Below, piece by piece: positions 43,213 through 46,430 of a stretch of DNA of 64,000 nucleotides. The translations under genes were made by a program, and so were the position numbers. Position 1 is the stretch's first letter. Every line of letters begins with the position of its first letter. The DNA comes from Tsukamurella sp. TY48. GTDB taxonomy: Bacteria; Actinomycetota; Actinomycetes; Mycobacteriales; Mycobacteriaceae. The stretch lies in the NCBI RefSeq assembly GCF_019656655.1, contig NZ_BPMV01000001.1, forward strand, positions 1,240,001 through 1,304,000. Direction: 5' to 3'. Below the pieces are notes generated by a model, which made no database searches, was not told where the DNA came from, and worked only from the letters and a program-made list of their open reading frames with translations.

Positions 43213-45009
43213 CTAATTCGGTTGAATCCGGTCTTCTCCGACCAGTTCCCGTACACGTTCCGCGCCGATCGCGAGCAACAACGTGGGCAGTCGCGGGCCG
43301 GTGTCCCCGCCCACCAGCAGGCGATAGAGAAGCACGAAGAATGCGCGTTGCGCTGCACCGAGTTCCTTATCGCCCTTGACGATCTGATCGGCGCCGAGGC
43401 CGCGCTGCACCTTCGCCACGCCGTACACCTGGTGGGTGATCCCGGCCAGGGTCCAGTCGTCCTCCAGCCGGCCCAGGCCGGCCGGCGCGGGGGTCCCGGA
43501 ACCGTCGAGCAGCAGCCGCAGCGCCGCTCGCTCCTCGTCGCCCAGGGCGGCCAGCGCGGCGGCGTCCCGCTCCGCCCGGACCACGGTGCGTTCCTCGGCC
43601 GGCATCTGCTCGGCGACCCACGCGGTGGCGCGGTCCAACCGCGGGCGAAGTACATCGAGGCCGGTCAGGGGCTCATCGGGCTCGAGGGCGCTGAGGATAC
43701 GGAGCGTCTGCTCGTCGTCGCCGGTGGTGATATCGACCACCGAGGCCAGCGTGCGATAGGGCATCGGGCGCGGCGTGAGCGGCAGCTCCCGGACCGCGCC
43801 GGCGGCCGGATCGGCGACCGAGGCGGCGCGCGCGTAGGCCGCGATATCGCCGGGCTGCGCCTTGTCGCCGCTCACCTTGCGGGTCAGCGCATCCCATTCG
43901 TCGTACGTGCGCGGCAGCTCGCCGTCGAGCGCCACATCGAAGGACTGATTGGGCTTCTTGCGGCCGTACAGCCAGCGCAGCAGGGGCGGCTCCAGGTATC
44001 GGAGCGCAATCGCGGCCGTCGGAACTCCGCCCTTCGACGACGACATCTTCGCCATTCCGCGGATACCGACGAATGCGTACATCGGCCCCAGCGGTCGCCG
44101 CCATCCGAAGATCGGCGCCACATCCTTACCTACCGCGAACGAAGAACCGGGAGATTGATGATCCACACCGGAGGGCTCGAATGTGATCTTCTCGAAAGCC
44201 CAGCGCATGGGCCAATCGACCTTCCACACCAGCTTGCCGTCGGTGTGCTCGCGCAACAGCACCGTCTCGGTGTGACCGCAGCGACACTGATATTCCAATG
44301 CCGTCGACTCGTCGTCGTATGCGATGACGGTGGTGAAATCCGTGCCGCACACCGAGCAATAGGGCTTATACGGGTAGTAACCGGAATCGCCGGACCCGTC
44401 GGCCTCCTCGGCCGAGCCGGACGCGGCATCGGCGGCCTCCGCGGCGGCCGCTGCTGCGTCCGCATCGGTGGCGCCGCCCTTCTTCGCCTTGTCGAGGGTG
44501 CGGTAGCGCTCGAGGATCGTGTCGATCCGGCGGCGCTCGGACATCGCGTGCAGCACGCGGTCGGTGTAGGCGCCCGAGGTGTACATCTGCGTCTGGCTGA
44601 TGCCGCGGTAGGTGACACCCAGTTCGATGAGGGCGGCCTCCAGCTCGCGCCGGAAGTGCTCGGCCCAGTTCGCGGCGTCGGAGCCGTGCGGTGCCGGAAC
44701 CCGGGTCAGCGGCTTGCCGATGTGCTGCTCCCAGGACTCGTCGACACCGTCGATCTTGGGCACCTTGCGGAACCGGTCGAAGTCGTCCCACGAGATGATG
44801 TGCTCGACCGCGATGCCGCGGCGGCGCAGCTCGTCGGCCACCAGATGCGGCACCATCACCTCGCGGAGGTTGCCGAGGTGGATCGGGCCGGACGGCGAGA
44901 TGCCCGACGCCACCTTCACCGGGGTGTCGTTCTGCTCGGCGAAGGCGACCGCCTCATCGGCGAGGCGGGTCACCCAGTCGTCCAGGGGCGCATTCAGGGC
45001 TACGGTCAC
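43213..45009 (-). CDS. lysS: class I lysyl-tRNA synthetase
   Basis: A 598-residue synthetase of the archaeal-type class I fold, not the usual bacterial class II. The HIGH-type motif is GISPSGPIHLGNLREV and the KMSKS-type motif MAKMSSSKGG. A Cys4 zinc knuckle (YCSVCGTDF, YQCRCGH) is interrupted upstream by an Ala/Glu-rich low-complexity insert (about residues 200-235). It charges tRNA-Lys. The mycobacterial gene at this place is class II. GTG 45009 is 8 nt after TAGTAT (45018-45023), leaderless; earlier in-frame codons are not family-like. Confidence 0.93.
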   Translation of the reverse strand: MTVALNAPLDDWVTRLADEAVAFAEQNDTPVKVASGISPSGPIHLGNLREVMVPHLVADELRRRGIAVEHIISWDDFDRFRKVPKIDGVDESWEQHIGKPLTRVPAPHGSDAANWAEHFRRELEAALIELGVTYRGISQTQMYTSGAYTDRVLHAMSERRRIDTILERYRTLDKAKKGGATDADAAAAAAEAADAASGSAEEADGSGDSGYYPYKPYCSVCGTDFTTVIAYDDESTALEYQCRCGHTETVLLREHTDGKLVWKVDWPMRWAFEKITFEPSGVDHQSPGSSFAVGKDVAPIFGWRRPLGPMYAFVGIRGMAKMSSSKGGVPTAAIALRYLEPPLLRWLYGRKKPNQSFDVALDGELPRTYDEWDALTRKVSGDKAQPGDIAAYARAASVADPAAGAVRELPLTPRPMPYRTLASVVDITTGDDEQTLRILSALEPDEPLTGLDVLRPRLDRATAWVAEQMPAEERTVVRAERDAAALAALGDEERAALRLLLDGSGTPAPAGLGRLEDDWTLAGITHQVYGVAKVQRGLGADQIVKGDKELGAAQRAFFVLLYRLLVGGDTGPRLPTLLLAIGAERVRELVGEDRIQPN

Positions 45010-45055
45010 GGACCGTGATACTACCGCCGATACCACCGCCGAAAGGACCGGCGGC

Positions 45056-45424
45056 TCACGCCTCGTGGGCGGCGAACTGCGCGACGGCGCGCCGGTAGGA
45101 CTCGGATCCCGCTCCGGTGCCGCCCGCGGCGCGCAGTGTGAGGGCGCGGAAGCCGCCGTCGACCGACGAGGCCTGGACACCGCGGTCGCGGAGCCGGGTG
45201 GCGATCGCGGCGGCGGTGGCGCCGTTGCCGCTCACCAGGGTCCAGCGGGCGTCCGGGCCGGCGGCGGCGAGGCTGGTGCTCAAGCCGGGCACGAGGCGGG
45301 CGATCACGGCCGCGGCGTCGAGGGCGACGGCGCCGGTCAGGATGCCGTCGCGGGTGCGTTCGGACTGATCGCGCAGGTCGACGAGGATCGATCCATCAGC
45401 GGGGGTGAAGTGCACGGGGTGCAT
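45056..45424 (-). CDS. rhodanese-like domain protein without catalytic cysteine
   Basis: A 122-residue single rhodanese-fold protein (ILVDLRDQSER start, DGGFRALTLRAAGG end). The active-site loop, normally Cys-x-x-Gly-x-Arg, reads SGNGAT, and the whole protein contains no cysteine, so it cannot act as a sulfurtransferase by the known mechanism. GGAG precedes the ATG by 8 nt, and this GGAG can pair with a CTCC 5 nt upstream. A cysteine-rich leader ORF lies 64 bp upstream. Possible roles are sulfur-carrier binding or regulation. Confidence 0.8.
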   Translation of the reverse strand: MHPVHFTPADGSILVDLRDQSERTRDGILTGAVALDAAAVIARLVPGLSTSLAAAGPDARWTLVSGNGATAAAIATRLRDRGVQASSVDGGFRALTLRAAGGTGAGSESYRRAVAQFAAHEA

Positions 45425-45431
45425 CGGGATT

Positions 45432-45444
45432 CTCCAGGCGGGAG
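45432..45444 (-). promoter_or_regulatory. hairpin masking the rhodanese ribosome-binding site
   Basis: CTCC and GGAG (4-bp stem, 5-nt loop) on the minus strand would hide the ribosome site of the rhodanese-like gene. It could act as the output switch of the upstream cysteine leader peptide. The stem is short, so this is tentative. Confidence 0.35.
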
Positions 45445-45488
45445 GCGAACGCGTGGGGCGTTCGGGGCAGCGGAAGGGGGCCGGGTTC

Positions 45489-45533
45489 CTAGCGGACCCG
45501 ACAACACTCCATGCAGCTGCGCACCTGGCTCAT
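45489..45533 (-). CDS. cysteine-rich leader peptide, 14 residues
   Basis: A 15-codon frame encoding MSQVRSCMECCRVR, with Cys at 7, 10 and 11 including a tandem pair. It begins exactly 7 nt after a TAATTT box with a 17-nt-spaced TTGCCA, so the ORF is itself the start of a leaderless transcript, and it ends 64 bp before a rhodanese-like gene. Leaderless polycysteine ORFs that sense cysteine supply by ribosome stalling and control downstream sulfur genes are known in mycobacteria; this has the same design. No such gene is annotated routinely because of its size. Confidence 0.75.
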   Translation of the reverse strand: MSQVRSCMECCRVR

Positions 45534-45540
45534 GGCAGCG

Positions 45541-45569
45541 AAATTAGCACCCGACCGGCGGCGTGGCAA
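45541..45569 (-). promoter_or_regulatory. promoter of the cysteine leader-rhodanese unit
   Basis: Minus strand: -35 TTGCCA (45564-45569), 17-nt spacer, -10 TAATTT (45541-45546), then CGCTGCC and the leader ATG. It lies in the 34 bp after the coaX stop, so the unit is not dependent on coaX read-through. Confidence 0.65.
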
Positions 45570-45578
45570 CAATTGCAA

Positions 45579-46430
45579 TCATCGCTGCGCCGAATCCCGC
45601 GGGTGCGCCTTGCGCTCGGCGCGGGTGGCCCGGTTGGCCACTTCCCGCAGGTACACGGCCCGCAGGCCCTGCAGGGTGAGATCGGCCCGACGGTGCGTGA
45701 TGCTCCGGCACTCGGTGGCCACCCCGTCGTCGTAGCCGCCGGTGGCGATCACCACGGCGCCCGGCACCGTCTCCAGGGCGCGCCCCACCAGGGCGTCGAC
45801 CATGCCGGCGAAACCGTAGATGATGCCCGCCTGCAGCGCCTCGACGGTGTTCTTGCCGACCACCGACCGCGGCGGGACGAGCTCGACCCGGCGCAGGGCG
45901 ACGGTGCGGTCGGCCAGCGCGTCGAGGGCGCTGCCGACACCGGGGGCGATGGCGCCGCCGAGGAACTCCCCCTTGGCGCTCACCACGTCCACCCGGGTCG
46001 ACGTGCCGAAGTCCACCACGATGCAGGGCGCCGCCGCGGCGCGGCCGCACACCTCGAAGGCACCGGCGGCGTTGGCCACCCGGTCGGTGCCCACCTCGCG
46101 CGGATTGTCCACGTGCAGCGGCACTCCGGTCTTCACGCCCGGTTCCAGGATCACGTGCTGCGCGTGCGGGTAGTACCGCGGCGCCACGGCGCGCAGCGAC
46201 CGGAGCAGCTCGGGCACGGTGGACAGCGCGGTCACGCCGGTCACCGCCGCCGGATCGTGTCCGTGGCCGGTGAGGAAGCCGCGGATCACCAGCGCCAATT
46301 CGTCGGAGGTCATCCGGGGGTCGCTGCGCAGCCGCCAGGTACCCAGCAGCTCGCCCTCGCGCGCACCGTCTTCCGCCGCGAACAGGCCCACGGTGACCGA
46401 GGTGTTCCCGGCGTCGATCGCCAGGAGCAT
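45579..46430 (-). CDS. coaX: type III pantothenate kinase
   Basis: A 283-residue acetate-kinase-fold enzyme that phosphorylates pantothenate, first step of CoA synthesis. The phosphate loop with the catalytic Asp is AIDAGNTSVTVG at residues 4-15, the pantothenate/ATP region is VGTDRVANAAGA and VVDFGTSTRVDVVSAKGEFLGG (quoted in two parts: DFGTSTRVDVVS, KGEFLGG), followed by GKNTVEALQAG. The basic C-terminus is unconserved. Its ATG shares one base with the panD stop. panC-panD-coaX form a pantothenate/CoA operon. Confidence 0.94.
   Translation of the reverse strand: MLLAIDAGNTSVTVGLFAAEDGAREGELLGTWRLRSDPRMTSDELALVIRGFLTGHGHDPAAVTGVTALSTVPELLRSLRAVAPRYYPHAQHVILEPGVKTGVPLHVDNPREVGTDRVANAAGAFEVCGRAAAAPCIVVDFGTSTRVDVVSAKGEFLGGAIAPGVGSALDALADRTVALRRVELVPPRSVVGKNTVEALQAGIIYGFAGMVDALVGRALETVPGAVVIATGGYDDGVATECRSITHRRADLTLQGLRAVYLREVANRATRAERKAHPRDSAQR

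Follow-up and report, generated by a model that had tools for sequence, protein, structure and literature searches.

A conserved cysteine leader, most likely a variant of the mycobacterial leaderless cysteine attenuators, precedes a rhodanese-like gene in Tsukamurella and cysteine dioxygenase genes in its relatives

The TnaC leader of Escherichia coli senses excess free tryptophan and precedes tna, an operon that degrades an amino acid. For cysteine, Canestrari et al. reportedly described, in 2020, leaderless polycysteine short open reading frames (ORFs) at six loci of Mycobacterium. Their work is cited in the available text of PMC9094748 and PMC13236596, Cys leaders before other genes appear in the accessible part of Shell et al. 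2015 (PMC4633059), and a 2005 study (PMC1262725), in its available portion, predicted that Cys leader peptides precede the cys operons in Mycobacterium and P. acnes and cbs in B. longum. Here, we analyze a leader in Tsukamurella that resembles the Mycobacterium polycysteine ORFs in being a short, putatively leaderless ORF with Cys codons near its end, ahead of sulfur genes, and, as modelled for relatives, in pairing with the next ribosome site. It differs from them in occurring in Tsukamurella and other genera, in having one CC pair within a fixed ECC[RQ] motif and frozen nucleotides, in its target (a cysteine dioxygenase operon or a rhodanese-like gene), and in a Tsukamurella Shine–Dalgarno (SD) pairing that is not above shuffles. 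With the leaders of PMC1262725 it has in common Cys runs close to the stop, the lack of an obvious terminator, and a suggested involvement of Rho; unlike it, those leaders, in the available text of that study, precede other operons, with no conserved hairpin and no dioxygenase or rhodanese-like target reported.

The window, the whole stretch of 64,000 nucleotides that was analyzed, comes from Tsukamurella sp. TY48 (contig NZ_BPMV01000001.1). All features described here lie on its minus strand, in the interval between coaX (45579..46430, PF03309), the upstream neighbor, and lysS (43213..45009, PF01921, start inferred from sequence), the downstream neighbor, which encodes a class I lysyl-tRNA synthetase. 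They are, in order, a −35-like hexamer TTGCCA (45564..45569), 17 nt, a −10-like hexamer TAATTT (45541..45546), 7 nt, a putatively leaderless leader ORF of 14 codons encoding MSQVRSCMECCRVR (45489..45533, ATG at 45533, stop TAG), a 64-nt spacer (45425..45488), and a Cys-free rhodanese-like gene of 122 aa (45056..45424, start ATG 45424). ORF position, 7-nt promoter spacing, and 64-nt gap are all as the initial annotation had read them. The leader contains two adjacent Cys codons, TGT TGT (45501..45506), and one Cys at codon 7, with no long tract; TGT is a rare codon in the window, accounting for 18 of the 146 Cys codons in the ORFs kept there. By folding, a hairpin, P1, of sequence GUCGGGUCC(GCUA)GGAACCCGGC is predicted over the last codons and stop (45480..45502), and its counterpart was counted in relatives. 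It had also been claimed that the ribosome site can fold with a CTCC just upstream, and indeed the SD GGAG of the rhodanese-like gene (45432..45435) can pair, as 45435-45432, with CTCC at 45444-45441 across a 5-nt loop.

A generic sigma-70 scan called no promoter here, and TAATTT matches TATAAT at three of six positions; we take it to fit the actinobacterial TANNNT form. A second such element, TAGTAT (45018..45023), lies 8 nt before the GTG of lysS, which probably has a leaderless promoter of its own. Given this TAGTAT/GTG arrangement, the gene under control of the leader is most likely the rhodanese-like one and not lysS. Two familiar explanations were rejected: a known RNA family, because none of five leader loci matched Rfam at gathering score in a search allowing E up to 5 (the two matches obtained were far below it, 19.9 vs 50 and 16.7 vs 72), and an attenuator built on an intrinsic terminator, because no stem-loop followed by a U run occurs between 44950 and 45650 of the window.

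To place the leader in its genus, we compared 16 Tsukamurella genomes and found it in all of them (15 loci, with L204 as the 16th). The peptide is identical in 14, the other two encoding VRMTLCCQECCRIR and VTMSVCCRLECCRIR, and the CC pair is spelled TGT TGT in 15 of 16. Among the 14 genomes that share one peptide, synonymous variation affects 1 of 12 leader codons, compared with 53 of the 66 amino-acid-conserved codons within the first 95 of the rhodanese-like gene (Fisher P = 3.2e-6). Frozen codons of this kind point to selection on the nucleotides, not on the peptide alone. Conservation of the Cys codons had been set beforehand as the observation on which the proposal could fail; they are kept throughout the genus (16/16) and in the family, and the conserved Cys cluster near the ORF end by which mycobacterial polycysteine attenuators are recognized is present in all 16 genomes. 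Given this strong evolutionary preservation, the leader is therefore probably a ribosomal switch that senses a lack of cysteine.

We conclude that the element is most likely a genuine cysteine leader that represents a variant of the leaderless Cys attenuators of mycobacteria, and we assign a probability of roughly 0.7 to its being a ribosome-read cysteine attenuator. Transcription would begin at the leader ATG, and a shortage of Cys-tRNA would make the translating ribosome pause at TGT TGT. Paused there, it would prevent the leader RNA from adopting a repressive form and so permit expression of the downstream sulfur gene at low cysteine; with ample cysteine the ribosome would pass on and expression of the downstream gene would stay low. 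In relatives, the repressive form would be a long hairpin that ties up the SD and start codon of the following gene by pairing them with leader codons; in Tsukamurella, the paused ribosome would either free the SD from a weaker fold or keep Rho from terminating transcription within the C-rich spacer. Counted against an attenuator are the presence of only two adjacent Cys codons and a −10 that is weak by consensus.

The motif extends well beyond the genus. Searching the family with the rhodanese-like protein gave 30 loci; the ECC leader is present at 28 of them. Among 40 family regions, hand-chosen by the position of coaX or of a rhodanese match, 27 have the ECC leader and 13 lack it. Of the latter, L043 has VSKSCQVCR and L038 MLRCCC instead, L050 and L064 have an ORF ending CCPxNCRAL, L054 and L060 one ending QKCCLR, and six (L036, L042, L047, L059, L068, L070) have no CC ORF listed; L066 has unrelated CC ORFs only, and its genome carries the leader elsewhere (L126). 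With all synonyms allowed, 89 of 201 family genomes contain QECCRG-TGA, each a single time, with no match in the reversed control, and every place listed is spelled CAGGAGTGTTGTCG[AGC]GGCTGA, only the third base of the Arg codon varying. The 15 Tsukamurella genomes in this draw fall outside the 89 because their peptide ends RVR. Sixty regions were taken from positions of this pattern (59 loci) and from one more such place, and therefore give no frequency estimate. A looser leader pattern matched 41 genomes in a class-wide draw of 394. Occurrence outside the family was rejected, since 28 of 358 non-family genomes matched vs 18 in the reversed control, with mixed spellings, which is near chance.

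Leaderless geometry, with the start shortly after the −10, is conserved as well. Of 55 loci, 52 have [TC]ANNNT followed at 5-8 nt (at 7 nt in 45) by an in-frame ATG or GTG; a script took as start the one with a −10 at this distance, and L040, L044, L067, and L071 may in reality use a different one. The N-terminal part of the peptide differs between genera, and the residues E-C-C-[RQ] are kept. Conservation of ECC is what one would expect of a functional small Cys protein that binds metal or thiols and regulates nothing, yet the unconserved N-terminal part, the frozen synonymous sites, and the pairing of the leader RNA with the next gene's start in relatives (see below) all argue against that explanation, which we regard as very improbable.

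What follows the leader in many relatives is a cysteine dioxygenase gene. We scanned named genomes for the dioxygenase (507 relatives) and examined the best 80: a short ORF with a CC pair at or near its end lies at most 460 nt upstream in 71 of these 80, and in 70, from Nocardia, Rhodococcus, and Mycolicibacterium, it is the ECC leader. The nine loci without a CC ORF are the nine Tsukamurella listed. Four leader-preceded proteins, one with a longer spacer, score 37.3 to 46.8 bits against PF05995 (cut-off 23), and a rhodanese whose loop is intact (CSEGYTSS or CSQGYTSS) follows the dioxygenase in at least 6 of 19 regions that have both leader and dioxygenase. No dioxygenase relatives were found in viral contigs. 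The leader thus stands upstream of a sulfur gene in both settings, a rhodanese-like gene of weak Pfam score in the window and cysteine dioxygenase in relatives. In three Tsukamurella loci read closely, source genome included, the dioxygenase is fused to a rhodanese (loop CSEGY[TS]SS), and two other Tsukamurella have shorter frames at the dioxygenase locus. In the source genome the fusion (L165) is on contig C1 at 1959.8-1960.7 kb, with loop CSEGYTSS and no CC leader upstream; L166 and L172 carry it too.

This distribution suggests to us that the leader was originally part of a cysteine dioxygenase-rhodanese operon. In Tsukamurella, leader and dioxygenase probably became separated, the dioxygenase now being elsewhere and the leader having stayed between coaX and lysS with the rhodanese-like protein. 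Such a history raises the question of whether the Tsukamurella leader is no more than a relic of its former place next to the dioxygenase. At all nine named Tsukamurella loci (among the best 80 of 507) the dioxygenase lacks a CC leader, and the Tsukamurella SD pairing is no better than in shuffles, as a relic would predict; the synonymous sites, by contrast, are frozen in 14 genomes, and we consider a relic highly doubtful. A literature search of partial coverage brought up no paper recognized as describing a leader before this cysteine dioxygenase gene, and the surprise of this analysis is the tie of a cysteine leader to a cysteine-degrading operon.

The protein encoded downstream of the leader lacks a hallmark of active rhodaneses, the catalytic Cys in the active loop: that position is lost, the loop reading VSGNGATA. 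Even the rhodanese label is weak, at 19.7 bits against PF00581 (cut-off 22.2); of three relatives, L057 passes (29.6 bits) and L018 (18.7) and L020 (20.7) remain below the cut-off, and the alignment of diverse rhodanese-like proteins is too divergent for scanning. That a Cys-free protein could be made when Cys is scarce had been offered as telling, but this argument carries little weight, as 2 of 9 ORFs of similar size (100-160 aa) kept in the window are Cys-free. It is weakened further by cysteine dioxygenases that are Cys-free at loci without the ECC leader (L167, L168, L169, L175, L176, L180, and L182).

For the RNA, the clearest case is a group of relatives with a compact spacer (59 sequences, 55 distinct). 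In many of them type I cysteine dioxygenase comes first, in others (L057, L067) a rhodanese-like gene. Here the leader sequence GCAUGAG is predicted to pair with CUCAUGC, the segment containing the next gene's start codon, and the last leader codons to lie within a hairpin. The structure is paired in 96.5% of cells, vs 34-50% in slid controls. Changes on both sides of a pair occur in 14 cells against a shuffle mean of 3.1 (0 of 500 shuffles as high), although they are restricted to 4 of 15 pairs (16 of 500 as high); because the structure was derived from the same sequences and the shuffles ignore relatedness, we read this test as support and not as proof. At the first base of the start codon the pair changes from UA to CG in four distinct sequences, AUG becoming GUG together with the leader base, and in 13 other sequences GUG stands opposite an unchanged U. 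RNAalifold on the gapped alignment A1 recovered the start-codon helix and the stop hairpin and missed the SD helix, because MAFFT gaps were placed unevenly there.

Energies agree with this picture (counts cover 114 of 115 loci, L058 being omitted because no start was found). The duplex of leader with SD and start has −26.0 kcal/mol in the compact group vs −15.8 kcal/mol for shuffled targets, with 56 of 59 sequences at 5% or better, as are 21 of 24 other long-spacer loci. In the folding model, opening SD and start in the compact group costs 16.7 kcal/mol when the RNA is free and 7.6 kcal/mol with a ribosome on the first Cys codon, a gain of 9.2 kcal/mol vs 3.6 with synonymously shuffled leaders. 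With the Cys codons occupied by a ribosome, the pairing of the leader with SD and start would open. A point against this reading is that the modelled stall would free the start codon but not the SD itself, the unpaired probability rising from 0.02 to 0.42 for the former and falling from 0.29 to 0.15 for the latter. In a group that we label Gordonia-like, a name coined in this analysis, SD control was rejected, as 16 loci show no mean effect (−0.4 vs 1.0 kcal/mol). In one of these, L018, a hairpin AGGGC...GCCCU with a U run just past the leader stop looks terminator-like by eye; it is not kept in L022 and L030.

The direction of control deserves separate comment, since a starvation switch on a cysteine-degrading enzyme is puzzling physiology. 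Like TnaC, the ECC leader is short, has conserved residues, and stands before an amino-acid-degrading operon; unlike for TnaC, there is no evidence of excess sensing. An arrest peptide is conceivable in which nascent ECC[RQ] stalls the ribosome near the stop at high free cysteine and so induces cysteine oxidation, and the dioxygenase directly downstream in many relatives, the conservation of E-C-C-[RQ] beyond Cys alone, and the very short leader ending right after CC are all in keeping with it. Cys codons, however, are the classical starvation signal, the target in the window is not a dioxygenase, and in the model the compact-group site stays harder to open with the ribosome at the stop than with the ribosome at Cys (9.9 vs 7.6 kcal/mol). 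Moreover, in Gordonia sp. NB4-1Y cysteine dioxygenase and four sulfurtransferases are higher on organosulfonates than on sulfate, so that the dioxygenase gene rises when poor sulfur sources replace sulfate, a pattern that argues against an arrest peptide sensing excess cysteine (PMC7661421; transcript-level data, with no leader named in the available text). These data fit a leader that is on at low sulfur, although translational control alone need not alter transcripts. We judge the arrest peptide improbable, and regard as unlikely also the broader proposal that ECC[RQ] is a family-wide cysteine counterpart of TnaC whose Tsukamurella copy was redirected to a non-catalytic rhodanese-like protein.

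Returning to the starvation-sensing attenuator, its read-out in Tsukamurella is less clear than in the compact group. The minimum-energy fold of the window leader joins the leader stretch CCAGGUG (45522..45528) to CGCCUGG at the SD (CGCCTGG, 45434..45440), and the leader RNA as a whole folds better than shuffles (z −2.41, 4 of 200 as good). The leader-SD/start pairing itself is no better than in shuffles (0 of 15 Tsukamurella loci at 5% or better), and the predicted opening energy changes from 9.9 kcal/mol free to 8.6 stalled, a gain of 1.4 vs 0.9 kcal/mol in shuffles. Extending the 3′ target into the first rhodanese codons did not improve on shuffles, 10 to 64 of 100 being as good across the 15 loci. 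Thus, of the mycobacterial mechanism that the initial annotation had proposed for this leader, the pairing finds backing in relatives, from energetics and from pair-keeping changes, whereas in Tsukamurella the pairing does not exceed shuffles.

The spacer offers a second route. It is C-rich and G-poor (C33, G15 in 64 nt), a possible Rho loading region, and its C-G excess is reached by 0.36% of 64-nt windows on both strands. The C-rich spacer, the absence of an intrinsic terminator, and SD pairing equal to shuffles therefore leave sensing likely, with a read-out through either SD release or Rho. A sub-case of the attenuator keeps the same sensing and makes Rho-dependent termination in the spacer the only read-out in Tsukamurella, with no SD control. 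Base composition (Tsukamurella spacer means C 0.53, G 0.23), the unremarkable SD pairing, and the suggestion of Rho for Mycobacterium cys leaders in the available text of PMC1262725 speak for it; spacers are C-rich in every group, however, and the window leader RNA does fold better than shuffles, which makes this sub-case a tentative option, somewhat short of an even chance.

If the attenuator reading is right, the mycobacterial leaderless Cys attenuators extend to Tsukamurella and relatives, and one short, near-frozen RNA-peptide element couples cysteine supply to a cysteine oxidation operon in many genera, a coupling that runs opposite to expectation for a starvation switch. The direction of control and the role of the dioxygenase-rhodanese pair under sulfur shortage would become directly testable, and many natural variants, including AUG and GUG starts, would be at hand for dissecting start-site release by a paused ribosome.

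Other Cys leaders were observed alongside. In genus g30, L167, L169, L173, and L179 carry different CC leaders before the dioxygenase (VMEHVGFQGCCRRS, VMEYVAFQGCCCRS, MTTGRQGCCGA, and VMERFGFCECCRP). The source genome holds a second leaderless-looking Cys leader, MRNRCELLLTRRLAVDLCRMAGCRCLG, on contig C1 at about 2638.3 kb (L321, L318), 173 nt 5′ of the first domain match of a two-domain rhodanese; we presume that it resembles the mycobacterial type, and we count it in favor of the attenuator reading. Among the 13 rhodanese and NIR_SIR matches examined, the gene behind this second leader is the only one with a Cys leader.
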